From a virus: a stretch of DNA of 64,000 nt. Numbering within the stretch: the first letter of the stretch is position 1; each line of letters opens with the position of its first letter. The notes beneath the pieces are model-generated. The model did not search any database and was not told where the DNA came from. It saw only the letters and a list, made by a program, of their open reading frames with translations. Where the stretch lies: IMG/VR virus record IMGVR_UViG_3300019766_000011, positions 1-64,000 of that record; one strand, written 5' to 3'. Both the position numbers and the translations under genes were made by a program. Of the stretch, positions 2,302 through 31,849 are shown piece after piece.

Positions 2302-2514
2302 CTAGTGTAAAGTCATTTCATAGAAAAAACCAATGATACCTTTAGTAGGTATCATTGACCTAATCCATCCTAAGTTATCGTAGTATCTGTAAGCTTGGCC
2401 AGTTTCATCTCTCTTCATGTTGAGAGCTTTTATTTTACCATCAATACGTTTAAGAACTACGAATTCCCCCGTACTAGGGGGAATATTTGACAAATCGTAA
2501 GTATTAGAGTCCAT
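2302..2514 (-). CDS. Hypothetical protein, 70 aa
   Basis: Small protein between the exonuclease and the resolvase. Its ATG overlaps the exonuclease end by 11 bases and has only a weak ribosome site, so coupling is likely. It has aromatic YYDNLGW and GFFYEM segments, perhaps an SH3-like fold. No family recognised. Confidence 0.7.
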   Translation of the reverse strand: MDSNTYDLSNIPPSTGEFVVLKRIDGKIKALNMKRDETGQAYRYYDNLGWIRSMIPTKGIIGFFYEMTLH

Positions 2515-3841
2515 GACGGAACTTAGCCAAAGGTGCCATTACGTAATCACCCTCTTTTACTTCATAGTGACGAATCCAAAGAAGTGTTGCAACTTCCAGT
2601 AATAAATCATAAGGCTCTACAACCATACGTTCATGTTTACCCGGTTTAAGTTCCAAAGTAGGAGCACCGAACTCATCTTCAACAAAACAATCCCATTTAT
2701 AATATTGGAAGGTTTGGTCCATTGCACCTTTCTTCCATAAAGCCATACGAGCTGCTTTTGCTTTCTTACGGAATGCAGTTATCTCTTTTGCATGAACACC
2801 ACGGTAAGAGTAATCCCAATTATTCTTACGGATCTCATCTTCAACATCTTGTTCTGCCATGAAAACAGGTACGTAATCTTCCCAGCACTTTAATACAGTT
2901 TCGTACAATTCACGTTCTGTATTCAAAGGTTCAATAGTTTCATAAAGCTTAACAGGACCAAAACCTTTAATTCCGGGAATGTTATCAATGTCATCACCTT
3001 GAAGCATCTGAAGGTACAAACCTTTTAGACCATCAAACTTAATTGAACGATCTTTAACTTTAACACCACATTCTTTATAACGAGTTTTTAAAGTTACACT
3101 ACCTAACTCAGATATCCAACGTAACTCTTCAGTACGAGGATTGTAATGTGGACCAGCTGATTGAAATGTATCTTTATCCACAGATACCATTACAACGGGA
3201 CATTCCATCTCTTCTGGATTCATTGGATTGATCTCACCTTTCTGGATCTTAAGTGGTAACTCTTTCAACCACTTCTGATAAGCTTGGTAATGATCAGTAA
3301 CAACAGGATCTTCAGCTTCCATACCTGTAGCTATCTTAGCTCCATGGTACTCTATCATGTGTTCACGAATGGTATCATAATAATGTGGACGGGTTACACC
3401 AGAACGATTAGCTTTATATTTTTTAAGTGTAGCAATATCATTACGAAAGTTGGTATCACCTTGAGTAATCCAAAGATCCTGAGAGCCACCACCCAAATCA
3501 TCTATGATCCGTTGAATTGTCATGTTGACAGAGTGTAAACAGTTTTCGATAGGTTCAAGCTCGATACGTTGCTCGAAGGTTACATGCTTCCATCGTTTAT
3601 CATTAGCTAAACGATCTTCCATTTCAAATTTATCTTTAACACCCATCTTCTCATAAAGTTCTGTTTTAGAATCAGCTTCAAATTTAACTTTACCCTTAAC
3701 AGATATAGTTTCAACAAGCTTCTCGCATACTGCACCTACTGCGTATGCAATCCAGTCAGCATCATGTACGATATGAGGACCACCTTCATAATATTTTAAC
3801 TCATGTCCTTTTTCTTGTTTCATTGGCTTAGAAATAGCCAT
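2504..3841 (-). CDS. 5'-3' exonuclease (T7 gp6-like, FEN/PIN-like)
   Basis: The 445-residue product carries FEN-nuclease features: YKANR, the acidic METGM.AEDP-type region (GMEAEDPVV), SVDKD, and the helix-hairpin-helix LQGDDIDNIPGIKGFG (about residues 275-290). T7 gp6-type enzymes remove RNA primers, degrade host DNA and make recombinogenic ends. I chose the ATG at 3841 over a GTG at 3847 because the GTG lies inside the GAGGAGG ribosome site. The chosen start gives an N-terminus MAISKPMKQEKG that recurs in three other proteins here. A terminator hairpin separates this gene from the SSB gene. Confidence 0.88.
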   Translation of the reverse strand: MAISKPMKQEKGHELKYYEGGPHIVHDADWIAYAVGAVCEKLVETISVKGKVKFEADSKTELYEKMGVKDKFEMEDRLANDKRWKHVTFEQRIELEPIENCLHSVNMTIQRIIDDLGGGSQDLWITQGDTNFRNDIATLKKYKANRSGVTRPHYYDTIREHMIEYHGAKIATGMEAEDPVVTDHYQAYQKWLKELPLKIQKGEINPMNPEEMECPVVMVSVDKDTFQSAGPHYNPRTEELRWISELGSVTLKTRYKECGVKVKDRSIKFDGLKGLYLQMLQGDDIDNIPGIKGFGPVKLYETIEPLNTERELYETVLKCWEDYVPVFMAEQDVEDEIRKNNWDYSYRGVHAKEITAFRKKAKAARMALWKKGAMDQTFQYYKWDCFVEDEFGAPTLELKPGKHERMVVEPYDLLLEVATLLWIRHYEVKEGDYVMAPLAKFRHGL

Positions 3842-3869
3842 AGACACCTCCTCTTTTTATTGATATTAA

Positions 3870-3894
3870 AAAGCCAACCTAAATGGTTGGCTTT
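3870..3894 (-). terminator. Rho-independent terminator after the SSB gene
   Basis: On the minus strand AAAGCCAACC and GGTTGGCTTT form a 10-bp stem with a 5-base loop, followed by a run of T residues. It lies between the SSB stop and the exonuclease ribosome site, so it probably gives SSB more transcript than the genes downstream. Confidence 0.85.
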
Positions 3895-3914
3895 AATCTA
3901 AAAGTTACTAAAGA

Positions 3915-5015
3915 TTAGAAAGGATCATCTTCATCTTCATCTTCATCTTCGTCACCTTCACTTTCTTCAGCCTTAGCTGCTGCTGCTGCTGCTGCTTTTT
4001 TAGCTTTAGCTTTTTTAGCCTTAGCTGCTTTAGCTTTTGCTTCAGCTTCAATTTCAGCTAACTCTTCATCTGTTAATTCATCTTCTTCTTCGTCTTCTTC
4101 AACGACAGGTTCCTTCTTAACAGCTTTTTTCTTAGCTGGTTCTTTCTTTTTAGCTGGTGACTTTACTTCTTCTTCTTCTTCTTCTTCAGGCACTTCTTCA
4201 TTCTTAGCTTTTTTAGGTGCAGCTTTTTTCTTAGCTGGTGCTTTACGAGAAGGTTTTTTAGACTTCTCTTTAGGGTTATCAAAAGTTCCGTACTCTTCTA
4301 CCCAGCCTTCGATCAATTCATCTAAGTAGCAACCAGTTCCTTCTACCAAGTCAGCATACTCTTCAGATTGGAGAATCTTAGAAGTTATAAACATACCACA
4401 TGCTTCAGGGAGTTCTTGATCAAAACGCTCATCAAAACCGTCACCTGCTTGTGGATTACCTTTTTTATCTAGTTCAGGACTTACTAAGTCAAAAAGGAAC
4501 TTAGGAAGATTTTCATCTGTTTCAACATCTTTCTTAGCTTTAGGAGACATAGAACTTACTTCCCAAATTTCTACATCCTTACCACCGATCTTATCTTCAA
4601 TTCGGGTAAATGTTAATAACTTACCTACACAATCGGATAGGTCTACGAAACCATCTGAAGATCGTGCTTTAGCATTAGCAGAGTCACATAGCTTACCAAG
4701 GAAAGCTTTCTTACCTGTGTTGGCATCTTTAACCATTGTTTCGATTAAAGGGAATTCTTCTTTACCAATTTTCTTAACACAAGGGGTATAAATATAACCC
4801 TCTTCTGCATCATCATCATCTTCTGTGAAGCCAATGAAGTGGACTACAATACCGATCTGTTCTTTTTCAACAGTATCATCTTCACCACCTTGGAAATCTT
4901 TTACAGATTGTGTACCTAATTCAGCAAAACCTAGAATCTGTACATCGTAAGGCACATTCAGCTTAGGTTCAAACTTGCTGCTTTTTTCTTTCTTAATTGC
5001 TTTTGAAATTGCCAT
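3915..5015 (-). CDS. Single-stranded DNA-binding protein with histone-like linker
   Basis: This 366-residue protein ends in an acidic tail EDEDEDDPF, which is the SSB C-terminal tip (compare DDDIPF of E. coli SSB and the acidic Phe-ending tail of T7 gp2.5). The N-terminal 240 or so residues would be the OB-type DNA-binding part. Between them lies a roughly 110-residue low-complexity linker alternating KKKAAPKK-type basic blocks with long Glu runs, unlike a usual SSB linker and similar to bacterial histone H1-like proteins. The position beside the exonuclease and resolvase fits a T7-like replication block. The N-terminus MAISKAIKKEK is the shared motif. The assignment rests on tail and context rather than on a clearly recognised OB fold. 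Confidence 0.75.
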   Translation of the reverse strand: MAISKAIKKEKSSKFEPKLNVPYDVQILGFAELGTQSVKDFQGGEDDTVEKEQIGIVVHFIGFTEDDDDAEEGYIYTPCVKKIGKEEFPLIETMVKDANTGKKAFLGKLCDSANAKARSSDGFVDLSDCVGKLLTFTRIEDKIGGKDVEIWEVSSMSPKAKKDVETDENLPKFLFDLVSPELDKKGNPQAGDGFDERFDQELPEACGMFITSKILQSEEYADLVEGTGCYLDELIEGWVEEYGTFDNPKEKSKKPSRKAPAKKKAAPKKAKNEEVPEEEEEEEVKSPAKKKEPAKKKAVKKEPVVEEDEEEDELTDEELAEIEAEAKAKAAKAKKAKAKKAAAAAAAKAEESEGDEDEDEDEDDPF

Positions 5016-5056
5016 GGTATTTAATACTCCTATTTAGTTAATTTTAGTTAAGTGAA

Positions 5057-5431
5057 TTAAGCGAAGGTAAATCCTGATGGGCCACTTACACCCGTCATTC
5101 GTGCTGTTACGGAACGGTGACGAACACTACGTTTATTCACTTCAATATTGTGATTAACGATAGCCTTACCTTGCTTAGATTCATAATCATTAAAGACCGA
5201 ACCCGGTTCTTGCTTGTCACCATTTGGTTTATATTTACTGTTATTGAACAGAGTGATGGTTTGTTTATTAGTTGTTGGACTCGTGTGAGTTTTGATAGCT
5301 TCAGCAGCTACAGCTTCACGATACTGTTGGGGTGTGATATTTAAAATCTTAGCCATAGCTACTTCATCTTGTGTAAAGCCACCATTGAAAGCTTTGTAAG
5401 CTAGATTTTTAATCGAATTACCTAATCCCAT
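5057..5431 (-). CDS. Hypothetical protein, 124 aa
   Basis: A GAGGAG ribosome site precedes the ATG. The first half is helical with an ILNITPQQYREAV segment resembling a short helix-turn-helix; the second half is polar and basic with HRSVTARM. Lies between thioredoxin and SSB. Function not recognised. Confidence 0.72.
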   Translation of the reverse strand: MGLGNSIKNLAYKAFNGGFTQDEVAMAKILNITPQQYREAVAAEAIKTHTSPTTNKQTITLFNNSKYKPNGDKQEPGSVFNDYESKQGKAIVNHNIEVNKRSVRHRSVTARMTGVSGPSGFTFA

Positions 5432-5494
5432 AATTTGTACTCCTCAGTTATTAATTTGAATTGTGATTGTTACTACCAGTGTAGTATGAACTAA

Positions 5495-5920
5495 TTAATC
5501 TTCATCGTCAACATCTATTTCACTATCAATCTCCTCTTCTTTAATTTCTTTTAATTCTTGGATTCGTTTAGACCATAGTAACAGATGCTCCTTAAACTGT
5601 CCAGCTTGCATCAGACCAATTAAAGGCTTACCAACTACTTTACCTTTATACAGAACCAAGGTAGTAGGAATACCACGTACAGCGTAAGATGGAGGAATTT
5701 CTACTGATTCCTCTACATCTACACTAACAAACTTAAATTCGCTAACCACAGATGGATCATTACCATCTTCGATTGCTTCCTCTTCAAAGGTGATAGAGTC
5801 ATTCATAATTTCATCCATAAGCTTACAAGGACCACACCAGTTAGCTCCGAATTTTACAAGAACAGGACCTTCATAGTCAAGCACTTCTTTTTTAAATGTT
5901 TCATCGTTAACTTTTAACAT
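5495..5920 (-). CDS. Thioredoxin
   Basis: The 141-residue protein contains the active-site ANWCGPCKL near residue 30 and the cis-proline loop GIPTTL near residue 76, so it is a complete thioredoxin fold with both redox cysteines. An extra C-terminal tail rich in Glu and Asp (EIDVDDED) is unusual. Phage thioredoxins reduce ribonucleotide reductase or, as host thioredoxin does for T7, act as polymerase processivity factor. The T7-like polymerase gene in the same operon has an enlarged thumb region, which makes the second role worth testing. Confidence 0.92.
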   Translation of the reverse strand: MLKVNDETFKKEVLDYEGPVLVKFGANWCGPCKLMDEIMNDSITFEEEAIEDGNDPSVVSEFKFVSVDVEESVEIPPSYAVRGIPTTLVLYKGKVVGKPLIGLMQAGQFKEHLLLWSKRIQELKEIKEEEIDSEIDVDDED

Positions 5921-5979
5921 CTTAACTCCTTTACTTTATTTGATGATATGTATCATATACCTATCATTTATGAATGCAA

Positions 5980-6150
5980 CTACTTATTAAATTTAATTCT
6001 ATTATTTTTAAGTAGATCATTATAGAGATTTCCAACCTTCTCAGGGTCTAATCGGAATGCTTTAGCAGTAGCTACTACTGAATTACCATTAATTAGCATT
6101 TCATTACAACCTTTCCAGTTCTCTTCTGTTGGTGAATTGTATTTTGACAT
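5980..6150 (-). CDS. Possible internal-start product, 56 aa
   Basis: Within the longer frame, ATG at 6150 is preceded by GAGGAGAAAGAG, a near-ideal ribosome site. The 56-residue product MSKYNSPTEENW... is the complete C-terminal domain. It could be an independently translated protein whose ORF is fused to the upstream Cys-rich module. Confidence 0.45.
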   Translation of the reverse strand: MSKYNSPTEENWKGCNEMLINGNSVVATAKAFRLDPEKVGNLYNDLLKNNRIKFNK

Positions 6151-6414
6151 CTCTTTCTCCTCATTTAAGTTAAGTCTAACAAATGCTGTAGTATTTTTCA
6201 ATTTTAAAATGACCTCCTCTGATTGAATCTCCTTTAATATGAAAGGCCATTTACCACCACAAGGTATTAAAGTCCCCTCAACTACACAAGTATTAGATGT
6301 TTCGTAGTAGCACCCTTCACAACTTAAAGAGTTATCTATTTTAGTTACTTCTACATCAGTCCCATTATCTGTTGTGATTATTGAACCATATGCGTATTCA
6401 GTACTATCCGACAT
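5980..6414 (-). CDS. Cys-rich small protein with C-terminal helical domain
   Basis: 144 residues. The first 65 residues (GSIITTDNGT, then CEGC, C and PC cysteines) match the protein encoded at 6671-6916, so the two are paralogues with four Cys likely to bind zinc. The C-terminal 56 residues form a separate domain with SVVATAKAFRLDPEKV, resembling a helix-turn-helix. An internal ATG at 6150 has an excellent GAGGAG site, so the C-terminal domain may also be made alone. Function unknown. Confidence 0.7.
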   Translation of the reverse strand: MSDSTEYAYGSIITTDNGTDVEVTKIDNSLSCEGCYYETSNTCVVEGTLIPCGGKWPFILKEIQSEEVILKLKNTTAFVRLNLNEEKEMSKYNSPTEENWKGCNEMLINGNSVVATAKAFRLDPEKVGNLYNDLLKNNRIKFNK

Positions 6415-6640
6415 GATTAGTATCTACTATATTAAGTTCAACTAGGCTACACATCCATCCTTGAGCTTCTAGATCTTCCCAAGTTGTATGTAGTTTCCCT
6501 CCTATTGAACACCTAGCAAAGTGTACAGCTAAGTCCTGAGAATGTGATTTAGATTTACGGGCTGAATTTATTAATACATCAGCTTCCAATGGGTTGTGAC
6601 ATACCCAATATTTAAGTTTATGTTTTTTACCCTTATTCAT
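6404..6640 (-). CDS. Hypothetical protein, 78 aa
   Basis: Basic N-terminus (MNKGKKHKLKYW), two central Cys/His positions and a C-terminal hydrophobic segment. The end overlaps the next start by 11 bases. No family recognised. Confidence 0.65.
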   Translation of the reverse strand: MNKGKKHKLKYWVCHNPLEADVLINSARKSKSHSQDLAVHFARCSIGGKLHTTWEDLEAQGWMCSLVELNIVDTNHVG

Positions 6641-6670
6641 GAATAGCTATTCCTCACTTTAATTTATTAG

Positions 6671-6916
6671 TTAACAAACCCTGTGATACTCTTCGTAATC
6701 TAGTACTTCTGAGGAGGTAGTAGTATCATCAGGTACTTTAAGAATAAAGTTATCTTCTATACAAGGGATATCTTCTCCACCTATCTTGCAAATTAAATTA
6801 TTCTCTCTGAAGTAACAATCATTACAACTTCCTTCATACTCTTCAACTACTTCAAGCTTTGTTCCGCTATCTGTTGTAATTATAGAACCGTGTTCATATT
6901 TATTCTCACTATGCAT
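6671..6916 (-). CDS. Cys-rich small protein, paralogue of 5980-6414
   Basis: 81 residues with HGSIITTDSGT followed by CNDC, C and PC, aligned with the N-terminal half of the protein at 5980-6414. The four cysteines probably hold zinc. It lacks the C-terminal helical domain of its paralogue and ends in HRVC. Overlaps the upstream gene by 8 bases. Confidence 0.7.
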   Translation of the reverse strand: MHSENKYEHGSIITTDSGTKLEVVEEYEGSCNDCYFRENNLICKIGGEDIPCIEDNFILKVPDDTTTSSEVLDYEEYHRVC

Positions 6917-7238
6917 TACATAAACCCCTCTTTAGTTTCCTTAGATCTTTTATTAGGTCTAGGAAGTAATAACCTCCTTCGTTACCCTTAATTTCTGTAT
7001 CTCTTGTACCTCTAAAAGATTCGTAAGACACTAATAGTACATCTTCACCTTTAACATTACATTCACCAGTGTACCATCTAAGTTCAATACCACTACCGTG
7101 TGAATTAAAAGAAACCGTATAGTACCAAGTACGCAAACCATCAGTACTAAATACAGGTTTACCTCTTCTGACTATTTCAGTAACCAAAGCAGTTCGGTTA
7201 GAGCCTCGTGGACTGTTTGATGATAAATTAGTCGGCAT
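6909..7238 (-). CDS. Hypothetical protein, 109 aa
   Basis: A good ribosome site (AGGAGAG) precedes the ATG. The sequence is beta-rich with a YYFLDLIKDLRKLKRG helix near the end. No recognised domain. Confidence 0.68.
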   Translation of the reverse strand: MPTNLSSNSPRGSNRTALVTEIVRRGKPVFSTDGLRTWYYTVSFNSHGSGIELRWYTGECNVKGEDVLLVSYESFRGTRDTEIKGNEGGYYFLDLIKDLRKLKRGLCNA

Positions 7239-7258
7239 TACACTCTCCTTTAATTAAA

Positions 7259-7290
7259 TTAGTGAGGAGATTGTAATAGATCCTCACTAA
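7259..7290 (-). terminator. Terminator hairpin after the deaminase gene
   Basis: TTAGTGAGGA and TCCTCACTAA form a perfect 10-bp stem with a 12-base loop. On the minus strand it is followed by TTTAATT. It separates the polymerase-deaminase genes from the small genes downstream. Confidence 0.6.
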
Positions 7291-7297
7291 TTGTCAA

Positions 7298-7609
7298 CTA
7301 ATAAATTATAATTTTTTTAATACCAGCAAGTTCAGCAGCATTAGTGCAATTATCACATGCATAGCTATGTCCAGTTAAATAAAGTGTTGCCCCTTTACAC
7401 TTAGGTCCTGCTTTAGTTATTGCAATTACCTCTGCATGTGCTTCCTGATCACATACTTCTTTACAAAGATGATAACCTTCTCCACTAGCGTAACCTTCAG
7501 ACTCTCTTGGGCAAACCTCCTGTGGGTTAGCACAGGAGTTATCACCTTTAAAGATCTCACCATCACTTGCAACAATTACAGCTTTTACTATTTGTTTAGC
7601 ACAAGTCAT
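7298..7609 (-). CDS. Cytidine/deoxycytidylate deaminase-family protein
   Basis: 103 residues with the zinc deaminase motifs: HAEVIAI (the catalytic HAE), GATLYLTGHSYAC and the ACDNC pair of zinc cysteines. dCMP deaminase would supply dUMP to the ThyX encoded in the same operon. I chose the ATG at 7609 because AGGAGG lies just upstream; an in-frame start at 7639 would lie inside the polymerase gene. Extra cysteines around residues 24-50 (SCANPQEVCP) may bind a second zinc. Confidence 0.8.
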   Translation of the reverse strand: MTCAKQIVKAVIVASDGEIFKGDNSCANPQEVCPRESEGYASGEGYHLCKEVCDQEAHAEVIAITKAGPKCKGATLYLTGHSYACDNCTNAAELAGIKKIIIY

Positions 7610-7620
7610 AAAACCTCCTG

Positions 7621-10491
7621 TTAATGGCAATCTAACCAACTAAGTCCAATTTTGTACTCAGCATCTAGTGGACAGTTAAGTTCATAAAACTCACCAGCAT
7701 CTATAATTGATTGCTTCATCATTTCACCAACCATCTCTGCATACTTTGGATTACAATGTATTTGGCTCTCATCGTGGTAAGTAATAACAATCTCACCAAA
7801 GAAGTCATCAAACTCTTCACGGAACTCTTGAAGCTTTACAGCCTGAGTATCAAAAGCTTTCTTCATAACTAAAGCACCACCAGATTGACATGCCAAGTTA
7901 AGTGCAGCATGAACACCACGTACAGGCATCATACGTCCATCTATTGCTACTAAGAAACCTTGCTCTGCATCTTTCTGGATACGGTCAATACAATCACCTA
8001 AAGGTTTAAGACCCTTCATAATCCGCTCACGAATCTGAGTACCTATTACTGTATTCTGTGCTTCGATGAAGGTAATAGATTCCTTCTCAGCTCTCCAATG
8101 TGAAAGTCTCCAACCACCTCTAAGTTTCTCCCAACCATTATCCCAGAGATAGTCTTCATCAAACTCCCCACGGTTAAGCTTAGCAACAGACCCAAGTTTA
8201 CAATCACCTGCACCAAATATCAATGCGTACTCTACAGTTTTCGTATCTCCTCGTGTTTCAATCCATTCGTCAATAAGCTTCCAAAGGATTGTATGGAAAT
8301 CACCATCAGTTATCTCAAATGTAGTTTGTACATCATTCATCAAGTGAGCAAGTATACGTAACTCTAAACCACTAGCATCACAACCTATCTGAGCCATACG
8401 ACCTTTAACGTATGAAGTCATCACAAAATCAAGTTTAGGCTCACCCTTTTTATCAACTTCACCTGTGTCCACCTCTTTAAACTCGAAACGATCTACGATG
8501 GACTTGTTAAGTTCCACATAGTTGTTTCTCATTTCCTCAGTACCAAAGGTCATATCATAGCTCCAAGGCTCTACACGGTCATCTAGAGGCGCTACAAAGC
8601 ATCTACGCATCTCACGACCCCATCGTGCATCTACTGAAGGTACATTAACTACCCCCGCATGGCGACTACGGGCTGTAGGTGTCCCTTGTGGTGTATTCCT
8701 GCAAGTTATCTGTCCATCATCCCGGATAAGGTTCAACCAACCCTTTGTAGGGTCTTTAAAGTTCTTTATAGCTGTTCTACGAGCTGAATCTACAAAACGA
8801 TCTTGTACCTTCATGCCTAAGTCATTAGTCATACTATTGAAGGATGATTCTGTTAATTTAGGGTTACCTTTATCAGTAAACTCATCAGGTATCCATTCGT
8901 AATGTTTTAAGAAGAGGGCTTTAACCTGATTATTTGATGATAATTCATAAGGTAGATACTCAATTTTAGAGTAAGGCCCCACCACAACATCCTTTAATGG
9001 CTCACGTATGGATGTGTACGGGCCAATAATTGTTTCTTTGAGTAACCACTTAGGTACAGAGGTACGAAGCTCTCCAGCCTTCTTAGAGGCCGTTGTATCC
9101 TTAGTATCTTTAAGATGATCCCAATCTTTGAGAGCCATGCCAGCTTCACTAGCTAATTCTTCGATAAATCCTTCTGGATCATCTAAGTAATGGTTGGATT
9201 CTTTAGCCTTAATCCCAGCAGATTTTAACCAAGTTTTAAGGATACGTTCTGGGAACTCAAAAAGCTTCCTTGGCGGGAACATCAAATCCATTTGCTCCTT
9301 AGCTGTCATATACTTCGTGCCTGTAGAGAATGCTTTATCAAAGTAGTTCTGTACAAGTGCCTTCAACTCTCGATCTTGGCTATAAGGCATCAATGTAGGT
9401 TTACCATGACGGATATCGTCATTATCCCAATCCCACTCCATAGGCCAAAAAGCTTTTAGTTCTGTTACAGGTTCTCCGTTACTTTTTAATAAAGGATGGG
9501 GATCACCATACTCATCTAACTCCGTTACAATTTCAGTAATAGAATGACCCATATCTATTAATGGTTTAGATAAACCCACTTCCATGGATTCTACATACTC
9601 TTGATTATCAACTTTAGATGAGACAGCTTCACTAAATCGTAGAGGTAATTGAGGTAAAACTTCTTCGTCACACTTAGCAATTAGTGAGTCTAATTTATTA
9701 ACAAATCGAATAGCATGTTCTTCATCAAAACCACTACCAACTCGTTCAGCCCTTGCTATTATAGTTGAAGCACGATGCTCTATGTTTAAGGGATTCCTCC
9801 AATCAATACCATGGTGGATTTTATCAGCACCTATTTCATCAATAAGTTCTACGTAGGTCATTACATTGTTTTTAACATCATCACGTAGGCGTTTAACCAT
9901 ATCCATACTAAATACAGTCCAGTCCTCAATACCCGGCTTAGGCATACCATTACGTTCACCCCACGCTTCTAAACCATGAGGACCACCTTTAATTCCCTTA
10001 ACAGCTGGACGGTCTACGTATTGAGTACGAGACATTACAAGGGTATCTATAATCCTACGCTTATCGTTTAGTTCAAAACCTTTATACCAATCATAACTCA
10101 TTATCCGATTTAGTAATGGAACATCGTATTGAATAAAATTATGACCAATTAGAACATCACAACGATCCAAGTAGTTCTTAAGCATAGACATAGGAAATAT
10201 TTTAGTACCACTTGTTGCAGTCCTACGTATTCTGTCACCGTATTTCTTTAACATTTCCTCATCATAAAATTCAACAGCTTCCATGTCATCATGCTTTACG
10301 TCAAAATCAACAGCAGATGTAAAGGTGATTATCTTACCTGTAGATCGGCTTAATGGCCAACCTGATGGAGACACGTTAATAAACCTGACACACCAAATAC
10401 GATCAGCTTCAGGTTGTCCACGGGGAGTTAAGAATAAACCGTTTGACTCTAAATCTCCAAGTGCTCTAAACTTTTTCTTCTTAATTCCCAT
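7621..10491 (-). CDS. DNA polymerase, family A (T7-like), with 3'-5' exonuclease
   Basis: The 956-residue enzyme is longer than T7 polymerase (704). Exonuclease motif I is GDLESNG (D13, E15), with HNFIQYDVPLLNR as motif II. Palm motif A is DASGLELRILAHL (about 705), the O-helix is KTVEYALIFGAG (about 750) and motif C is YHDES (about 907). The O-helix keeps the T7-like Tyr at the sugar-sensing position but has Phe where most family A enzymes have the second Tyr. Extra sequence lies between exonuclease and palm (about 350-510) and holds two similar GPYT/GPYS segments. This is the phage replicase and may use the phage thioredoxin. Confidence 0.95.
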   Translation of the reverse strand: MGIKKKKFRALGDLESNGLFLTPRGQPEADRIWCVRFINVSPSGWPLSRSTGKIITFTSAVDFDVKHDDMEAVEFYDEEMLKKYGDRIRRTATSGTKIFPMSMLKNYLDRCDVLIGHNFIQYDVPLLNRIMSYDWYKGFELNDKRRIIDTLVMSRTQYVDRPAVKGIKGGPHGLEAWGERNGMPKPGIEDWTVFSMDMVKRLRDDVKNNVMTYVELIDEIGADKIHHGIDWRNPLNIEHRASTIIARAERVGSGFDEEHAIRFVNKLDSLIAKCDEEVLPQLPLRFSEAVSSKVDNQEYVESMEVGLSKPLIDMGHSITEIVTELDEYGDPHPLLKSNGEPVTELKAFWPMEWDWDNDDIRHGKPTLMPYSQDRELKALVQNYFDKAFSTGTKYMTAKEQMDLMFPPRKLFEFPERILKTWLKSAGIKAKESNHYLDDPEGFIEELASEAGMALKDWDHLKDTKDTTASKKAGELRTSVPKWLLKETIIGPYTSIREPLKDVVVGPYSKIEYLPYELSSNNQVKALFLKHYEWIPDEFTDKGNPKLTESSFNSMTNDLGMKVQDRFVDSARRTAIKNFKDPTKGWLNLIRDDGQITCRNTPQGTPTARSRHAGVVNVPSVDARWGREMRRCFVAPLDDRVEPWSYDMTFGTEEMRNNYVELNKSIVDRFEFKEVDTGEVDKKGEPKLDFVMTSYVKGRMAQIGCDASGLELRILAHLMNDVQTTFEITDGDFHTILWKLIDEWIETRGDTKTVEYALIFGAGDCKLGSVAKLNRGEFDEDYLWDNGWEKLRGGWRLSHWRAEKESITFIEAQNTVIGTQIRERIMKGLKPLGDCIDRIQKDAEQGFLVAIDGRMMPVRGVHAALNLACQSGGALVMKKAFDTQAVKLQEFREEFDDFFGEIVITYHDESQIHCNPKYAEMVGEMMKQSIIDAGEFYELNCPLDAEYKIGLSWLDCH

Positions 10492-10750
10492 TTGAAGATT
10501 CCTTAATTATCTCAAAGAAGTGGTGACCTTTAATTTCATCATTCCCTTTTAATCCAAACACTTCATAAAAAGAGTAATTATGAGGAGAACCCTTCTCTGA
10601 AGTAATCTCAAATGAGTCTAAATCAGTATCATACTCATATTGATAAACTTTTTCAACTTTATACTCCTTACCTACCACTAAAGCAGGTCCCGAACCATCC
10701 TCCATCTGACAGTCATCTATAGCTAGTAGTTTAGTTCCTATTTTTAGCAT
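10481..10750 (-). CDS. Hypothetical protein, 89 aa
   Basis: Beta-rich small protein of a type common in phages (IGTKLLAID..., GKEYKV, then an SH3-like ending). Its stop lies 11 bases inside the start of the polymerase gene, so the genes may be coupled. AGGAGGT precedes its ATG. Function unknown. Confidence 0.72.
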   Translation of the reverse strand: MLKIGTKLLAIDDCQMEDGSGPALVVGKEYKVEKVYQYEYDTDLDSFEITSEKGSPHNYSFYEVFGLKGNDEIKGHHFFEIIKESSNGN

Positions 10751-10758
10751 AATACCTC

Positions 10759-10980
10759 CTACATTCTAAGTTTAAGTTTAATATCCGTAGCTACAAAAGA
10801 CTGTAGCTTATTTATTTCCCCATCTGATATTAATCCTATATTAGATGGGTAACCATTGTCAATTAATTGTCCAACTTCTTCAATAATTTTAATAGAGTAT
10901 GTACTAATAACCGAAGGAGTTATACCTTTCTTCAATAAACAAGAAGCTACACCTACACGCCACTGTTTTAAATCAATCAA
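10759..10980 (-). CDS. Hypothetical protein, 73 aa (TTG start)
   Basis: The only start that fits the GGAGG site at spacing 6-7 is a TTG at 10980, which overlaps the end of the upstream gene. Helical protein without a recognised family. Confidence 0.6.
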   Translation of the reverse strand: MIDLKQWRVGVASCLLKKGITPSVISTYSIKIIEEVGQLIDNGYPSNIGLISDGEINKLQSFVATDIKLKLRM

Positions 10981-11227
10981 AGAAAACCTCCTTTAAGTGA
11001 TTAGCGACATTTAAAGGACCCATTAGTGCTACATGATCTACAGGTAGCATAGGCTGCACAATCGCTGGATGGAAGTTACCATGAAACATATCCATCATAA
11101 CCTCTTCCATCTCTTCAGCTTCAGATCCTTTCATATTTGTTAGCTTGTCTACATTAACTCCTGCCTTAACTAACTGAGTCTTAACTTCTGCCATCCAACA
11201 GTATAGGTGCCATTTTGATAACTTCAT
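10973..11227 (-). CDS. Hypothetical protein, 84 aa
   Basis: ATG at 11227 (MKLSKWHLY) overlaps the helicase stop as TAATG, with GAGGAAC upstream. The earlier in-frame start at 11257 lies inside the helicase gene and lacks a site. Met- and acid-rich centre (EAEEMEEVMMDMF). Unknown function. Confidence 0.7.
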   Translation of the reverse strand: MKLSKWHLYCWMAEVKTQLVKAGVNVDKLTNMKGSEAEEMEEVMMDMFHGNFHPAIVQPMLPVDHVALMGPLNVANHLKEVFFD

Positions 11228-12345
11228 TAACGTGTTCCTCTTCCAATTAATAAACATTTACGACTAGCACGAGTGATAGCAGTATACTTCCAACGGTTAT
11301 GTTCTTTTAAGTTAGAACCCGGTAAACGTTCCTCAATAATTACAACATTAGGATACTCGCTACCTTGGCTTTTATGAACTGATAAGCAATACCCAAAATC
11401 AAAATAAGCCCTACGTTTATCCGGATTTTCAGGAACCTCTCCATTAAAAGTATTTTTATCTACAATAAGCTCAAAACTCTCTTCGTATCCATCTGGTTTA
11501 AATTTGATAGATATCGTGCTTACATTAACTTCTAGTATCTTTTCAACTGTACCCGTCATTCCATTATTAATTAGCATATCTCGATTATTTTTAAGACAAA
11601 CTAAACGTTCACCTTCCTCAGGGATATCACCCTCATAACCACGGTACTCCCTAATCTGTCTATTAACTCTATGTCGCGTTCTATTAGTTGCACATAAAAC
11701 AACATCAGCCCAATTTAAGGTTTTAATGTTATTAGATTCCTTCTTTGGGAATTGACAGAAATCTTTACCAATTTTACCCATTGGAATTTTCTCATTCTGC
11801 CTGCACATTTGAGAGGCTATGATGATCCCGCTAGAAGCTTCCTGACGCATGATTTCATCTAGGTTAATATGAGGACGTGCCATAATATTAGATCCACGAG
11901 AACCACCCACTGGATCAAGCTGACCTTTATCACCAACATATATAATTGGAATACCAAATGATTCTAAATCTCTTCGTATATCAGGATCGGCCATACTAGC
12001 CTCATCGACTACTATTAATTCGATATCATCAAGATCTTCTTTAAGTTCTTGTCTCACATTAAAATCATCATCAATATCATAATCATAAATAGAGGAGTGG
12101 ATGGTATGTGCATTCATTCCTTTAGATTTCATAACCTGTGCTGCTTTACCAGTGTAAGCACAGTATAAAATATTATTAGGCTTATAACCAAGGTCTTGAG
12201 ATATAACATGGCTTAATAGAGTGGTCTTACCTGTACCAGCGTAACCTCCTAGAATAAAAGGTTCCCTCATAGGGCCTTTAGACCAATCTATTAACATTGT
12301 TCTAGCTATCCCTTGTCGTTTTGTAAACGAGATTTCATCTAACAT
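11227..12345 (-). CDS. SF1B DNA helicase (Dda/RecD-like)
   Basis: 372 residues with helicase motifs in order: Walker A GGYAGTGKTT, Walker B VVDEASM, motif III YVGDKGQLDPVG, motif V SVHKSQGSEY and motif VI TAITRAS. This is the size and pattern of T4 Dda-type 5'-3' helicases. It probably remodels forks or removes proteins. No DnaB- or gp4-type ring helicase is seen in this window, so this could also be the main fork helicase. Confidence 0.9.
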   Translation of the reverse strand: MLDEISFTKRQGIARTMLIDWSKGPMREPFILGGYAGTGKTTLLSHVISQDLGYKPNNILYCAYTGKAAQVMKSKGMNAHTIHSSIYDYDIDDDFNVRQELKEDLDDIELIVVDEASMADPDIRRDLESFGIPIIYVGDKGQLDPVGGSRGSNIMARPHINLDEIMRQEASSGIIIASQMCRQNEKIPMGKIGKDFCQFPKKESNNIKTLNWADVVLCATNRTRHRVNRQIREYRGYEGDIPEEGERLVCLKNNRDMLINNGMTGTVEKILEVNVSTISIKFKPDGYEESFELIVDKNTFNGEVPENPDKRRAYFDFGYCLSVHKSQGSEYPNVVIIEERLPGSNLKEHNRWKYTAITRASRKCLLIGRGTR

Positions 12346-12353
12346 TTTACCTC

Positions 12354-12836
12354 CTACTTTTTAACAAGAGTTAAGTGTGCTCTTGATTTGATTGGTTTTA
12401 TCTTAGGATTAAATCCTACTATTTTTAAGTTTTTACTACTTAATAAAGGTTTAGGTTTCTCTAAATTATCAGAAACAATTGAAGTATCTTCTTCGTAATT
12501 ATCTTCCCTATCATTGTAAGTCATATCACCTATAGGAAACGAAGAATTAGCTGGATCTTCCTTGGCGTAGATCACTTCTAAAGACTCTAAAGGACAATAA
12601 ATACTATAAGGGACACCACTAAAACGAGCTGTGAATGACATAACTTTACTATTTAATTTAAAATCAATAACAGCCGATGATGACACATTGAAAATAATAC
12701 TTCCATCTTGAATTAAATGTTCAGGAACTATCACATCTTTGACATTACAATTTACTAAGATATAAGGTGTAAGGTTATTCTCACAGATCCATTGAATATG
12801 TGCATTAGCATAGAAACTTGTTAGTGGCTTATACAT
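12354..12836 (-). CDS. sspB: SspB-like ClpXP specificity adaptor
   Basis: The 160-residue product follows E. coli SspB (165 aa) along its length. It has an N-terminal helix and LTPYILV; then VPEHLIQDGSIIFNVS, where SspB has VPMEYARDGQIVLNIA; then SFTARFSGVP for FNARFGGIP; then LEVIYAKEDP for LAIYAREN. An acidic linker with EEDTSI leads to a C-terminal RAHLTLVKK resembling the SspB ClpX-binding tail RPALRVVK. Known SspB binds ssrA tags and RseA and tethers them to ClpX. The ATG at 12836 has GGAGG six bases upstream; the longer ORF start would overlap the previous gene more and lacks a site. It lies between the helicase and small genes in the replication operon. The comparison sequence is from memory. 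Confidence 0.9.
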   Translation of the reverse strand: MYKPLTSFYANAHIQWICENNLTPYILVNCNVKDVIVPEHLIQDGSIIFNVSSSAVIDFKLNSKVMSFTARFSGVPYSIYCPLESLEVIYAKEDPANSSFPIGDMTYNDREDNYEEDTSIVSDNLEKPKPLLSSKNLKIVGFNPKIKPIKSRAHLTLVKK

Positions 12837-13170
12837 TATGAGCCTCCTCGTTATTATGTTCAGATAAAAATCGTGCCATTCCAATATAAATAGCTAGAAT
12901 TATTGTAGAACTAGTGAATGGTTCTATCGAGTACCTGTGTAAAAAAAGAGAAGAACTTGTGTATCCTAATTCAATAGCAAGTATAGTAATAGCTTCAGGC
13001 AAGTGCTCCGTCAAAGCTTTTAATTCTTCAGTACATCCATTAGGATTACCCAACTCTATCTGAGAAAGATGATGTTCTATAGATATTCTACTATTAAGTT
13101 TTATACCTTTTAATTCGCAATAATTACGTATTAAATTAATATTACGATCTTTTATAGGTGCTTTAATCAT
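12829..13170 (-). CDS. Hypothetical protein, 113 aa
   Basis: Helical protein with a moderately hydrophobic C-terminal stretch (STIILAIYIGMARFL) that could be buried helix or a membrane segment. Overlaps the sspB-like start by 8 bases and the upstream gene by 4. No family recognised. Confidence 0.68.
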   Translation of the reverse strand: MIKAPIKDRNINLIRNYCELKGIKLNSRISIEHHLSQIELGNPNGCTEELKALTEHLPEAITILAIELGYTSSSLFLHRYSIEPFTSSTIILAIYIGMARFLSEHNNEEAHNV

Positions 13171-13391
13171 TTAACACCTCCCTCATGGCTAACTATGTGA
13201 CAATAAATTACATCTGTGTAAGAGTCTGGTAGACTTAATTCATCCAAACTATTAGCAATACTATTTCGTGTAAGTTCGTCTTGTTTTTGTAAAGCCTTAC
13301 GGATACGATGTTCTACAGCACCACGATTATTAGGAGAAATAACATCTTCTAAAATTTCTACAACAGCTTTAGCTCTTTCTAGTACGTTCAT
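13167..13391 (-). CDS. Small helical protein, tandem paralogue 3
   Basis: 74 residues starting MNVLERAKAV behind AGGAGGT; the longer frame would lie inside the previous gene. Contains ALQKQDELTRNSI, which aligns with LLLEQDRITREAC and LLKEQHELTKKQC in the next two upstream genes. The three form a diverged tandem family. Function unknown. Confidence 0.7.
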   Translation of the reverse strand: MNVLERAKAVVEILEDVISPNNRGAVEHRIRKALQKQDELTRNSIANSLDELSLPDSYTDVIYCHIVSHEGGVK

Positions 13392-13651
13392 TTGATACCT
13401 CCTTGGTAATTCATAAGAGCCTCTTGAGTGTCTATAACTTCTAAACAACCACCAGTTTCGGTAGAGGTTGGTAAATTATTAATTAAAGTACAGCAAGCTT
13501 CACGAGTGATTCTATCCTGTTCCAATAGAAGAAGTCTTAGACCTTTCTTTAAACCGTCTATCAGATACCCCGGTACTTGAGACATAGCATCGTCTTGTAT
13601 CCCTTCCTCATTGTAAATGAAGTTCTCGATACGTTTATTTAAAGTACTCAT
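13388..13651 (-). CDS. Small helical protein, tandem paralogue 2
   Basis: 87 residues with LLLEQDRITREACCTLINNL, sharing the EQ-x-x-T core with both neighbours. ATGA-type overlap with the downstream gene. No recognised domain. Confidence 0.7.
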   Translation of the reverse strand: MSTLNKRIENFIYNEEGIQDDAMSQVPGYLIDGLKKGLRLLLLEQDRITREACCTLINNLPTSTETGGCLEVIDTQEALMNYQGGIK

Positions 13652-13890
13652 ACTAATTCAACTCCTTCAATTATCTTCTTAGAATACTCAAAAGCCAACT
13701 TTCCATGTGGCTCTTTTAATTTAGATAATTCATTTATGCATTGTTTCTTAGTCAGCTCGTGCTGTTCTTTAAGAAGATGACGGACACTTTCCTTAAGAAT
13801 CCTTAATTTATAACTTTCTAACTTATTTGTAAGTTGTGAGATACTTGAATCCCTTCCAGCCCACTTTGATATACGTACCGCTATTTGCAT
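13648..13890 (-). CDS. Small helical protein, tandem paralogue 1
   Basis: 80 residues with VRHLLKEQHELTKKQC. Overlaps the primase end by 10 bases and the next gene by 4. It looks like the first of three tandem duplicates and is predicted to be mostly helical. Confidence 0.7.
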   Translation of the reverse strand: MQIAVRISKWAGRDSSISQLTNKLESYKLRILKESVRHLLKEQHELTKKQCINELSKLKEPHGKLAFEYSKKIIEGVELV

Positions 13891-14804
13891 TTGATAGCTC
13901 CTTTCAAGATTTCGTAAACAGTATCATGACCACCACCGTTAAGCAACTCATCATTTGCATCTTTTCCAGATTTAGAAATAATAGGTATTAACTTATCCCC
14001 TAGTAGTTCCTTCATGCTCTCAATACACTTCAAACCAACATCATCATTATCACCCCAAAAGATTACTTTAGAATGGGATTCTACAAATTCAAGGTTATTA
14101 ATAATTCCTTGAATTGACCCACCTGTAGGCAGGCTTACCACTCTGCACCATCTTCCTGTTTTCAGTTTCAAGGTTTCTAGCACCGTTAATGCATCAGGTT
14201 CACCTTCTGTAACAATTAGATAGCCCTTATTGGGTAAAGCTTCAGCCTGCCTTTGTAAATAAAGTTTACTACCACGAGTGCCACCTATCACAAACATTTG
14301 CTTCGGTAATATTCTAACTTTAAAACCACTGAGAACCGATTCAATGTATGTATCATCTTCTTCATCTATACCTTCCCGGCTATAGTACTCAAATAGTACA
14401 GCTTCGAGTGTTCCGAAGTAAGGCGACCCTCTCATTCTCGTACCAGAATATCTCATGGTACGGGTACTTATTCCTCTCCAAGCTTCCATGTAAGGAAAGC
14501 CTTTAGCTTGTTTCAATCTATCTTGTACATAACGCTCTGGTAGCTCCTGTGAGATCATTTCAGGAGACAGTACACCGTCAGTAACCCCAACTATGTTATC
14601 GACCTCCTGTGGGCTATACCAAGTACTACAGGACCAGCAATACCCAGATAAAACACCAGAATCATGAGAATGAATCTCTACAGCATCTGATGATGTACAA
14701 CCTTTACCATCTGGATCATGACAAGGGTTATTAACACTAACCCTTTCACTGTTACCAGAGAAAAGATCATCTCTATGTGTTTTAATCGGTACTGATATTG
14801 CCAC
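13881..14804 (-). CDS. DNA primase (zinc-finger plus TOPRIM), T7 gp4 primase-half-like
   Basis: 307 residues. An N-terminal zinc-binding region has PCHDPDGKGC and GYCWSCSTWY (four Cys). TOPRIM motifs follow: VTEGEPDAL (catalytic Glu), FWGDNDDVG (metal Asps) and KDANDEL. The protein stops where T7 gp4 would continue into its helicase domain, so it is primase only. The start is GTG at 14804 behind GAGGAGT, giving MAISVPIKTHR, the N-terminal motif also seen on the exonuclease, SSB and polymerase-like proteins. Confidence 0.88.
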   Translation of the reverse strand: MAISVPIKTHRDDLFSGNSERVSVNNPCHDPDGKGCTSSDAVEIHSHDSGVLSGYCWSCSTWYSPQEVDNIVGVTDGVLSPEMISQELPERYVQDRLKQAKGFPYMEAWRGISTRTMRYSGTRMRGSPYFGTLEAVLFEYYSREGIDEEDDTYIESVLSGFKVRILPKQMFVIGGTRGSKLYLQRQAEALPNKGYLIVTEGEPDALTVLETLKLKTGRWCRVVSLPTGGSIQGIINNLEFVESHSKVIFWGDNDDVGLKCIESMKELLGDKLIPIISKSGKDANDELLNGGGHDTVYEILKGAIKCK

Positions 14805-14806
14805 GT

Positions 14807-15007
14807 TTACTCCTCGAAATTAGGTTCTAACTTAACACGTTCAAACATCTTATCACAAATTTCTTTACCATGTGTATGTACTATTTTATTCATTTGAACT
14901 CTTGCAACATTTCTAAGGTATGTTGGACTTCCTGAATCCATGTAAGCTTTAAAAAACTCTTGGTACAACTCTTCTGTATATCCTTGTTTTTCCTCTTGTT
15001 CAGTCAT
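14807..15007 (-). CDS. Hypothetical protein, 66 aa
   Basis: Acidic helical protein directly upstream of the primase. ATG has a GGAGCG site and the gene overlaps the upstream hydrolase by 4 bases. Not recognised. Confidence 0.66.
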   Translation of the reverse strand: MTEQEEKQGYTEELYQEFFKAYMDSGSPTYLRNVARVQMNKIVHTHGKEICDKMFERVKLEPNFEE

Positions 15008-15786: not shown

Positions 15787-16001
15787 TATTGAGTATTCTC
15801 CCCTAGAGTGCATAAATCGTGATGGTAGTGTTCCATAGCTTCCTTCCGATTGCAACGGTTAATTAAGTGTGCACATTTTTCACAATAATACTTACATGTG
15901 CTGTGATTATAGTATATAGCACTGCTAGACTTTTGGCAAGCAGTACGATTGCATTTACCACCAAATACACCCTTACTTTCAGAAGGTTTTAAATTAGTCA
16001 T
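15786..16001 (-). CDS. Zinc-finger-like Cys-rich protein, 71 aa
   Basis: Contains CNRTACQ then YYCEKCAHLINRC, a spaced set of Cys/His residues typical of small phage zinc-binding proteins. Overlaps the upstream gene by 8 bases. Role unknown. Confidence 0.75.
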   Translation of the reverse strand: MTNLKPSESKGVFGGKCNRTACQKSSSAIYYNHSTCKYYCEKCAHLINRCNRKEAMEHYHHDLCTLGENTQ

Positions 16002-22028: not shown

Positions 22029-22337
22029 ATGGCATCCACTAAAAAAGGCTTAATTGATAAAGTATACCTAGGTTATGAGAACGGGCCGCACTGGGCCTTA
22101 TATGCTCACAATACAAAGGCTCACATAAAAACCTATGCTAGTTTTGAAGAATGTATTAATGACGTGTATTCGCCAGAATTACAAGGGCATCGACCACCCA
22201 CAAGTGGCGAAATCAGGTTCGGACATGGTGCTACGCATTATAAGAAGTTTGATATCTTAGATTGTGTTAAACCTTGTGGCACTATCAAAAAATGGATTAA
22301 ATGCCCCTATGATGGGTTACGTTATAGCTTAGCATAG
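22029..22337 (+). CDS. Hypothetical protein, 102 aa
   Basis: Aromatic and His-rich (HWALYAHNTKAHI, GHGATHYKKF) with four Cys in the C-terminal half. No recognised family. Confidence 0.62.
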   Translation: MASTKKGLIDKVYLGYENGPHWALYAHNTKAHIKTYASFEECINDVYSPELQGHRPPTSGEIRFGHGATHYKKFDILDCVKPCGTIKKWIKCPYDGLRYSLA

Positions 22338-28168: not shown

Positions 28169-28170
28169 TA

Positions 28171-28902: not shown

Positions 28903-28909
28903 TTATTAG

Positions 28910-29661: not shown

Positions 29662-29670
29662 ATCTTCTCC

Positions 29671-30287: not shown

Positions 30288-30318
30288 ATTTCTCCTATCC
30301 TACGATTAATAATTATTA

Positions 30319-30347: not shown

Positions 30348-30438
30348 GTAATAATATAAATATAATCACAGACGAAGTGACGAGCGAGAGCGAGGAGCTG
30401 AAGTAACCTGTGATTCTATTCCACCTTTTCCTATCTTT

Positions 30439-30460
30439 CCCCCTTAGTGTACAGTTTAAG
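30439..30460 (+). repeat. 22-bp repeat, copy 2
   Basis: Identical to 23652-23673 (CCCCC plus TTAGTGTACAGTTTAAG). It ends three bases upstream of the -35 of the promoter before the polymerase genes, so it may bind a regulator or phage polymerase. Confidence 0.8.
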
Positions 30461-30463
30461 GAT

Positions 30464-30492
30464 TTGACAGGTACTTTTTAAGGGTGTAAAGT
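30464..30492 (+). promoter_or_regulatory. Host-type promoter of the polymerase-like/RNA polymerase operon
   Basis: TTGACA (perfect -35), 17 bases, TAAAGT, about 34 bases before the ATG at 30527. This would let host RNA polymerase express the phage RNA polymerase. Confidence 0.7.
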
Positions 30493-30526
30493 AGGTTAAT
30501 AATTTTAAGTAGTGAGGAGTAGATTT

Positions 30527-31849
30527 ATGGCGATTTCTAGCCCTATAAGAAAGGAGGTAATTAAGAGAGAACACACGTTCATATCTCAAGAGTATCTACT
30601 TGCAGACCCTGATATGCCTATACTTGAGGCAGTTTGTACCCTATACCTTGATGAGTATCCATGTGTAAGAATACCTTCCAAAATGAGGGAAACTATTTCT
30701 TGCTTTTTAGCCAATTTAATTGTGATTCAAAGGATCAATTCTGAGCAGTTTTTGAGTTTGTACAAACACCGTATTAATCGGACCTTCTATACTACCAATT
30801 TTACGGCCTTTAAATGGAACCATACGGTGATGAATAATTTGATTAAATTACTAGAGAGGGAATCAATTATTGAAGGAAGTTTAGGTTATAAACTAGAGGA
30901 GAGTATGCCATCCCTCTACAGGTTAACAATTGATCAGAAATTACTTGAGAATGTTACAAAAGCTAAGGTAGTTATTAATAATAAAGCTGCCCGGTATGTT
31001 GTGTTACGACCCGGTAGTTATGATTATGACAATAAGAAGGAGATCATGGCTAATACTAAGACTTTGAAAGATCTACCTGATCGTACCAAGAGGGGTTTCA
31101 GCCAACATAAACAGCTGGCCAATAATCTTCATAACTTAATGAAAAAGAATTCACTAATGAATGGTAGAGGTGACGAACTCATACCTAATTACTTGTGTTG
31201 GGTTTTTACGGAATCCTTTGAAAAACATGGACGTATGTACTTTAATTTACAGAATATGCCATCAAAGGATAGGAAGAAACTTACAATAAATGGGGAGGAA
31301 GTCGTTGAAATAGATTACGATAACTGTAGTGCTCATATCATGTACGCTATGAATGGATTACAATTAACAGGAGATGCCTACCCTACATCTCCTAAATTTA
31401 CACGTAAGATCTCTAAGAAGTGCTTTACTGTTATGGGTAATGTATCAAGTTCAGCGAGAGCCATTGAAGCTGTGTACCAAGATATGAAACTACAGCTTAG
31501 TACAGAAATGCCAAACAAGGATAAGAAATTAGCAGCTATGTCTAACGTATACCTTAAGAAGTCCATACGTAGCGCTATCGAAGCTTTAGAGTTGCAGCAT
31601 GACCAAATTATAGGGGTAGATTCTTTTGGATTGTATCAACGTAATGGATTGGATGTTATGGCAATTGATGCTAAGGTAGCAATGTTGGTTACGCAACACT
31701 TCGTAGGTAAAGGTGAAGTTATAATACCTATTCATGATAGTTTTATAGTTAGAAAAAGCTTGACGCAAGAATTAAAAGATGTAATGATTTCATCTTATAA
31801 AGCAGTACTTGGTAGTGAGTACACCATTACAATAACAGAGGAGGGGTAG
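30527..31849 (+). CDS. Family-A-palm-like polymerase protein of unknown role
   Basis: 440 residues. I start at ATG 30527 because GAGGAG lies 8 bases upstream; the GTG at 30512 would overlap that site. The N-terminal 200 residues are helical and may include a winged helix. Then come three ordered segments like single-subunit polymerase motifs: A, VEIDYDNCSAHIMYAMNG (about 259-276); B, KKCFTVMGNVSSSARAI (about 297-313); C, IPIHDSFIV (about 401-409). The T7 RNA polymerase motif C also begins HDSF. No exonuclease domain is seen. The N-terminus MAISSPIRKE is the shared replication-protein motif. It could be a primer polymerase, a template-independent polymerase or an inactive relative. Confidence 0.65.
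   Translation: MAISSPIRKEVIKREHTFISQEYLLADPDMPILEAVCTLYLDEYPCVRIPSKMRETISCFLANLIVIQRINSEQFLSLYKHRINRTFYTTNFTAFKWNHTVMNNLIKLLERESIIEGSLGYKLEESMPSLYRLTIDQKLLENVTKAKVVINNKAARYVVLRPGSYDYDNKKEIMANTKTLKDLPDRTKRGFSQHKQLANNLHNLMKKNSLMNGRGDELIPNYLCWVFTESFEKHGRMYFNLQNMPSKDRKKLTINGEEVVEIDYDNCSAHIMYAMNGLQLTGDAYPTSPKFTRKISKKCFTVMGNVSSSARAIEAVYQDMKLQLSTEMPNKDKKLAAMSNVYLKKSIRSAIEALELQHDQIIGVDSFGLYQRNGLDVMAIDAKVAMLVTQHFVGKGEVIIPIHDSFIVRKSLTQELKDVMISSYKAVLGSEYTITITEEG

Follow-up and report, generated by a model that had tools for sequence, protein, structure and literature searches.

Short peptides that recur on unrelated replication proteins and dock them on a common surface are exemplified by the PIP box and other clamp-binding peptides. 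The N-terminal domain of gp32, the single-stranded DNA-binding protein (SSB) of phage T4, binds the core of the adjacent gp32 (PMC12893549); gp32 deprived of that N-terminal peptide has high affinity for RNase H, and movement of the peptide has been suggested to uncover the RNase H site on gp32 (PMC3012046). T4 RNase H contacts gp32 via its C-terminal domain and binds the gp45 clamp via its own N-terminal peptide (PMC3012046), and the T7 SSB, gp2.5, acts as a docking hub through its acidic C-terminal tail (PMC5686142). Here, we analyze the first 64,000 bases (positions 1-64000; hereinafter, the window) of the 69,667-bp virus record IMGVR_UViG_3300019766_000011, in which a 5'-3' exonuclease, an SSB-like protein, a Toprim primase and a palm-like protein begin with the same short peptide. 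The central result is that the SSB-like protein and the exonuclease share an N-terminal peptide also in three further phage lineages, with a different peptide in each; across one and the same pair of families, the peptides are alike inside a lineage and unlike from one lineage to the next. This concerted change, read from the protein sequences, goes beyond the original prediction made for this DNA.

The peptide would resemble the B domain of T4 gp32, which contains the LAST motif, as a putative short N-terminal arm of a phage SSB. The accessible text on T4 says nothing of RNase H carrying the gp32 peptide, whereas here the nuclease carries that of the SSB. The basic Lys-Arg-Lys-Ser-Thr composition of LAST does not recur here: the window peptide is basic but of another sequence, varying among lineages, and the peptides of the SP6-like and some of the 9A-like phages described below are acidic, unlike LAST. 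In contrast to the PIP box, no phage clamp was matched in the seven records searched, the peptide is borne by the SSB as well, and it varies with the lineage. In the acidic C-terminal tails of bacterial SSBs (SSB-Ct) and of T7 gp2.5, the SSB tail is the ligand, whereas here the partner and the SSB bear the same N-terminal peptide. Literature searches on such sharing returned nothing on the subject (subscription papers were mostly outside reach), and neither an exonuclease nor SP6 is mentioned in the accessible part of the Enc34 SSB paper.

All four proteins indeed start with MAIS-x-[PA]-[IM]-[KR] at the predicted positions (Table 1), and the alanine codons are gct, gca, gca and gcg in the exonuclease, SSB-like protein, primase and palm-like protein, respectively, as had been claimed. 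The proposed extent of 8-10 residues does not apply to the primase, in which the likeness is shorter (AIS.PIK). As to the further claim that a ribosome-binding site selects each start, Shine-Dalgarno-like sequences precede all four genes (aggaggt for the exonuclease, aggag for the SSB-like and palm-like proteins, and gaggag for the primase), with the qualification that the primase start is a GTG; a mechanical open reading frame caller places the exonuclease and palm-like starts 2 and 5 codons further upstream, respectively, both at GTG. MAIS occurs at 4 of 97 gene starts compiled by hand for the record, compared to 0.08-0.17 expected, and at none of 237 control coding sequences from SP6, D530, T7 and parts of 9A and KASIA (lists without some small annotated genes, comprising 51 of 52 in SP6 and 48 of 57 in D530). 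When residues 2-9 were scored with BLOSUM62 in start-anchored mode, pairs among the four proteins occupied ranks 1-5 of 4,656 gene pairs, with the sixth pair ranking 10th; in unanchored scoring, the SSB-exonuclease pair was second, behind two tandem paralogues. The degenerate pattern TGGCNMTHWSNNNNNNNMTNMR has 4 matches in the whole record, exactly the four starts, and hence other genes of this virus do not commonly bear the peptide; among five named phages searched with it, one contained a single other match.

The searches turned up a single close relative, a 12-kb contig (L001/L005), with identities to the window proteins of 62% for the exonuclease, 53% for the SSB, 69% for the primase and 65% for the polymerase. 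Its exonuclease and SSB start with MAITKKIKKEASHS and MALTKKIKKEKAGS, respectively, both with T for S and K for P/A (window, MAISKPMKQE/MAISKAIKKE; relative, MAITKKIKKE/MALTKKIKKE), and are the two matches to TGGCNMTHWSNNNNNNNMTNMR on this contig. Nine of the first 10 residues are alike on the two proteins, encoded by the same codon at 4 of the 9 scored. The primase of the relative starts with MISKPFSKT, which retains IS.P but not the full peptide, and the palm-like gene was not seen on the contig, which is incomplete. A DNA similarity search of named phages with positions 2504-15855 revealed no close relative, nor did a protein search with the SSB. A scan of viral contigs with the polymerase profile yielded the L001/L005 contig and six distant contigs, and a scan with the degenerate peptide pattern yielded three contigs, the relative twice (SSB and exonuclease) and two with an unrelated small protein; other scans of viral contigs returned the L001/L005 contig alone or no relative. 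The small protein, of 87 residues with the start MALTKTIKKENN, is encoded at L003 2355 and L004 5790 (+) and fits the window pattern; this MALTKTIKKE protein was set aside as a chance match.

Exonuclease matches were counted in 941 records. Among distant phages with this kind of exonuclease, sharing between the SSB and the exonuclease recurs, with different peptides, in three more lineages. In Colwellia phage 9A, the SSB, exonuclease and primase start with MIIDNAGGK, MIINNAVDA and MLINNADVT, respectively, and the start-anchored ranks among 561 pairs are 4 for SSB-exonuclease, 2 for primase-exonuclease and 6 for primase-SSB. The related contigs L018 and L022 combine an SSB starting with MIIKT and an exonuclease starting with MIIRT, L020 combines MIIDNS and MIIDNA, and Shewanella phage KASIA combines MLIKT and MIIRT, yielding the consensus M[IL]I[DNKR][NT]. 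In SP6-like autographiviruses, F[DNS][FY]G[AG].[VL] (for example, FDFGAEV) is present on both proteins in all nine genomes compared (SP6, PM93, Era103, Aer_P220, Nufs112, ECBP5, JSF38, MR4 and D530), at a variable distance from the start codon. Vibrio phage D530 has FDYGG on both proteins, and the other eight genomes mostly have FDFGA or FDYGA; within the first 40 residues, F[DNS][FY]G[AG] is found on the SSB and the exonuclease alone among the 51 SP6 and 48 D530 coding sequences listed. The saclayviruses Acibel004 (SSB MAKGFKAR, exonuclease MAKGFKMR) and Aci05 (MTAFKMRK and MSGFKMRK) share the core [AG]FKxR. In the four positive clades, the exonuclease carries an N-terminal extension of 23-34 residues (in the window, about 23 before the first catalytic strand), and in none of the 18 positive genomes are the two genes more than about 1.5 kb apart. 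Thus, the SSB and exonuclease orthologues of the close relative and of three further lineages display sharing, and neither of the two outcomes named as refuting the original prediction, absence from orthologues or commonness on unrelated proteins, was observed for this pair.

No sharing between the SSB and the exonuclease was detected in T7, phiKMV, GX1, PA11, ECBP2, QDWS535, Pse254, Barba3A and Vibrio phage 2.058.O. For seven of them, no more than about 10 residues separate the exonuclease start from the first catalytic strand (five determined by script, QDWS535 and 2.058.O by eye), which leaves little room for an arm. As a separate observation, the HNH endonuclease of ECBP2 (L024 14718-15161) starts with MPDVIYPEVAIVDADTK, similar to MSDISYPEVAIVDGD of the adjacent exonuclease (15154-15972), and seems, judging from these starts, to have the 5' end of the exonuclease gene copied onto its own.

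To assess the agreement across genomes, we compared 27 genomes from 12 clades. The SSB scored best with the exonuclease of its own genome, relative to the exonucleases of other clades, in 17 of the 18 genomes that make up the four positive clades and in none of the 9 that represent the eight other clades. Permutation among clades, with one genome per clade, gave P = 0.0002, 0.0006 and 0.0012 when 14, 22 and 30 residues were compared, respectively; for a smaller set of 25 genomes in 10 clades, P was about 7e-4. The genome counts are not independent, given that JSF38, MR4 and ECBP5 are close to each other, as are KASIA, L018 and L022. The named phages came from the match lists of the exonuclease, primase, SSB or RNA polymerase, before their own N-termini were known, with the following exceptions: eight further SP6-like genomes were picked after SP6 showed sharing, Aci05 was picked after Acibel004, T7 and N4 were added from outside these lists, and phiKMV was added for its kinship with phages in the fold-search list. 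Omitted from the 27 were CR3 (no SSB located in the stretch), N4 (annotated exonuclease judged unrelated), L008 and other distant loci from the polymerase scan (SSB start unclear or not inspected), L019 (no SSB on the stretch) and L021 (same sequence as L020 where compared). The SSBs of L018, L020 and L022, and the L020 exonuclease, have a second start codon just upstream; the later ATG was used, a choice irrelevant to the unanchored scores.

What is conserved within genomes is the peptide rather than the DNA, as the original prediction had it, because identical residues of the shared segments use the same codon at chance level (55 of 123, with 56.6 expected from independent draws; the codon usage is that of the genes under comparison alone, and pairs from the same genome depend on each other). 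Both families are homologous across lineages. The exonucleases align with an hhalign probability of 99.95, from column 20 on, and the SSB alignments A6 (window, L001 and three 9A-like SSBs) and A8 (six SP6-like SSBs, PA11 and GX1) match at 94.6%, from column 22 on. Both alignments begin past the peptide, and therefore the peptides have diverged while staying matched within genomes. The match of the window exonuclease to phrog_107 covers residues 8-425.

The 366-residue protein is probably an SSB that coats single-stranded DNA, as suggested by its sequence and fold comparisons. It has a K/E-rich linker and an acidic C-terminus ending in DDPF, and an acidic C-terminal tail is present on most of the SSBs compared. 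No Pfam family was matched, and of ten SSBs searched against the T7 gp2.5 and Enc34 SSB families (PF21265 and PF10991), T7 gp2.5 alone gave a match. The SSB-like proteins of SP6-like, PA11-like, 9A-like and Saclayvirus phages belong to phrog_862, phrog_6599 and phrog_32668, to which PHROGs assigns no function; the window protein is related to these by profile comparison but not by direct match (hmmscan, E 0.001). The two Saclayvirus proteins also weakly match phrog_15004, annotated as single strand DNA binding protein (E 0.009 and 1e-4). Sequence searches identified no PDB relative of the window-type and SP6 SSBs. The AlphaFold2 model weakly resembles OB-fold proteins that bind single-stranded DNA. 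Its best PDB match is PrgE, a plasmid protein with a DNA-bound structure (E 2.4e-3; none at or below 1e-3), and its best match in the viral library is a 370-residue 9A protein (E 4e-10), which has the length of the 9A SSB, in a search for which 9A SSB relatives were part of the alignment. Residues 1-13 of the SSB model have a predicted local distance difference test (pLDDT) score of about 26, with strands from residue 22 on (mean pLDDT 50), and residues 1-19 of the exonuclease model are below 50 (mean pLDDT 62). Such N-termini fit a free arm, the evidence being weak given the poor models.

We propose, with middling confidence, that the N-terminal peptide serves for docking, as a short and flexible arm that belongs primarily to the SSB-like protein and is copied on the exonuclease, with the peptide and its pocket co-evolving. 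The SSB arm would most likely bind the core of the neighboring SSB on single-stranded DNA. The exonuclease would carry a copy of the peptide on its N-terminal extension, as would, in this lineage, probably the primase and the palm-like protein, and the copies would plug into the same SSB pocket. In this way, peptide-bearing enzymes would be loaded where the SSB covers lagging-strand DNA, to remove primers, for example. Co-evolution of pocket and peptide would account for a peptide that is lineage-specific yet alike on the SSB and exonuclease. We infer the docking of the arm, the pocket on the SSB and the loading step; by analogy with T4, a nuclease equipped with the SSB's own arm would use an exposed RNase H-type site on the SSB directly. 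More tentatively, the peptide might function as a phage-specific 'password' that admits only the phage's own enzymes to its SSB filament. The exonuclease, and in some lineages the primase and polymerase-like proteins, would mimic the self-assembly arm of the SSB, with concerted evolution of arm, copies and pocket in four lineages or more, that of SP6 among them. Of the functions suggested in the original prediction, a replisome docking tag is thus the best reading and is well supported for the SSB and exonuclease, whereas nothing here speaks for sorting or processing; it is moderately supported for the primase (window and 9A) and weakly for the palm-like protein (this record only). If correct, the proposal would reduce the recruitment of a primer-removing nuclease by a phage SSB to a simple rule, make SSB-docking proteins readable from sequence as other genes bearing the N-terminus of the phage's own SSB, and suggest a function for the unnamed phrog_862 and phrog_32668 families. 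The presence of the peptide on SP6 gp18 (SSB) and the exonuclease gp21 makes the idea directly testable.

Several observations weigh against this proposal. The T7 and phiKMV exonucleases have extensions of about 20-24 residues (by eye) that share nothing with their own SSBs; the primases of KASIA, SP6, D530 and Acibel004 are devoid of the peptide, and the palm-like homologue of KASIA starts with MVKREPVYEE. The sharing itself is weak in KASIA, with the SSB-exonuclease pair ranking 51 of 1,378 unanchored and 4 of 1,378 anchored, and a tie for first place with a foreign exonuclease, counted as the miss among the 18 genomes. The SSB assignment rests on weak fold and profile matches, and the structural models cover single chains built from 5 (SSB) and 6 (exonuclease) sequences. 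Finally, a 162-residue 9A protein (L047 1092 downwards, -; 9A 101691, -), which starts with MIIDNAKGQVK and shows an insignificant likeness to the N-terminal part of a palm-like relative (E 0.13), shares the first 17 bases of its gene with the SSB gene of 9A, which indicates that copying at the DNA level also occurs.

The main rival holds that the peptides of the SSB, exonuclease and primase dock not on the SSB but on one further protein, for example, the phage DNA polymerase, its helicase or a host protein. We deem this explanation less likely than our proposal. It accounts for the primase and palm-like carriers equally well, the gp45-binding peptide of T4 RNase H offers a precedent (PMC3012046), and the DNA polymerase may be the partner, as might a host clamp. 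A phage clamp is an unlikely target, given that no T4-type (PF02916) or bacterial-type (PF00712) sliding clamp was matched in any of seven records, a negative that proves less for PF02916, which responded in one of 14 control genomes and in none over the cut-off. A host-specific target was likewise rejected as a poor fit, because the two Vibrio phages JSF38 and D530 use different variants (FDFGA and FDYGG).

Much less probable is a signal at the nucleic acid level, be it a shared ribosome-binding region, a translational operator or recent conversion of gene 5' ends. The 17 identical bases in 9A and the above-expectation use of the same codon in 9A (11 of 15 shared residues) and Acibel004 (5 of 6) are what such a signal would produce, but the overall codon count, the within-genome ranks and the clade permutation led us to reject both an operator and recent conversion; furthermore, the regions preceding the four window genes look different by eye, and the SP6-like motif has no fixed position relative to the start codon. 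Inert common ancestry, in which the other genes once received a copy of one gene's 5' end that serves no function, appears similarly improbable: the proximity of the SSB and exonuclease genes makes copying easy, but inert copies would not have stayed alike through a complete change of the peptide from lineage to lineage, nor would the L001 pair have preserved 9 of its first 10 residues with 4 of the 9 scored codons in common. An arm used by each protein independently for binding nucleic acids, which would suit the basic window peptide (KxIKKEK), is still harder to credit, because FDFGAEV of the SP6-like and MIIDNA of some 9A-like phages are acidic and because independent DNA binding requires no identical sequence on both proteins. 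Chance combined with a generic start bias (ATG GCN, lysine-rich early codons) can produce the bare pattern, as the 87-residue protein on two other viral contigs attests, along with 254 stretches of bacterial contigs that fit one of two patterns (one being MAI[ST]K[PK][MI]K), none of which came from a relative. For the SSB and exonuclease, this explanation is effectively refuted by the ranks, the four lineages and the permutation, and we assign it a very small probability; it may still apply to the palm-like protein.

The record encodes terminase, portal, capsid, tape-measure and baseplate proteins, and the phage is therefore myovirus-like. Library matches identified a family A DNA polymerase and a T7/N4-like RNA polymerase in the window; the features are listed in Table 1.

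Table 1. Genes and shared N-terminal peptides in the window
Feature	Coordinates	Strand	Remarks
5'-3' exonuclease	2504..3841	-	phrog_107 family (profile match E 1.2e-40); 445 residues; start MAISKPMKQEKG
Exonuclease shared N-terminal peptide	3806..3841	-	12 codons
SSB-like protein	3915..5015	-	366 residues; probable OB fold; start MAISKAIKKEKS
SSB-like protein shared N-terminal peptide	4980..5015	-	12 codons
Family A DNA polymerase	7621..10491	-	starts MGIKKKKFRA; without shared peptide
Toprim primase	13881..14804	-	phrog_239; 307 residues; GTG start; begins MAISVPIKTHRD
Primase shared N-terminal peptide	14769..14804	-	12 codons
Palm-like protein	30527..31849	+	phrog_4756; 440 residues; start MAISSPIRKEVI
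Palm-like protein shared N-terminal peptide	30527..30562	+	12 codons
T7/N4-like RNA polymerase	31978..34026	+	without shared peptide

The palm-like gene is located directly upstream of the RNA polymerase gene, and relatives of its product are encoded by large Vibrio, Aeromonas and Pseudoalteromonas phages and by KASIA. Its DY.N and IHDS motifs, read by eye, resemble those of the family A palm, and the protein is possibly an undescribed polymerase. A small open reading frame at 22029-22337 (+), MASTKKGLIDKVYLGYENGPH, contains YENGPH, which resembles YEGGPH of the exonuclease, probably by chance. Two small genes at 6414 (-) and 6916 (-) resemble tandem paralogues (KYEHGSIITTDSGTKLEVVE and EYAYGSIITTDNGTDVEVTK).

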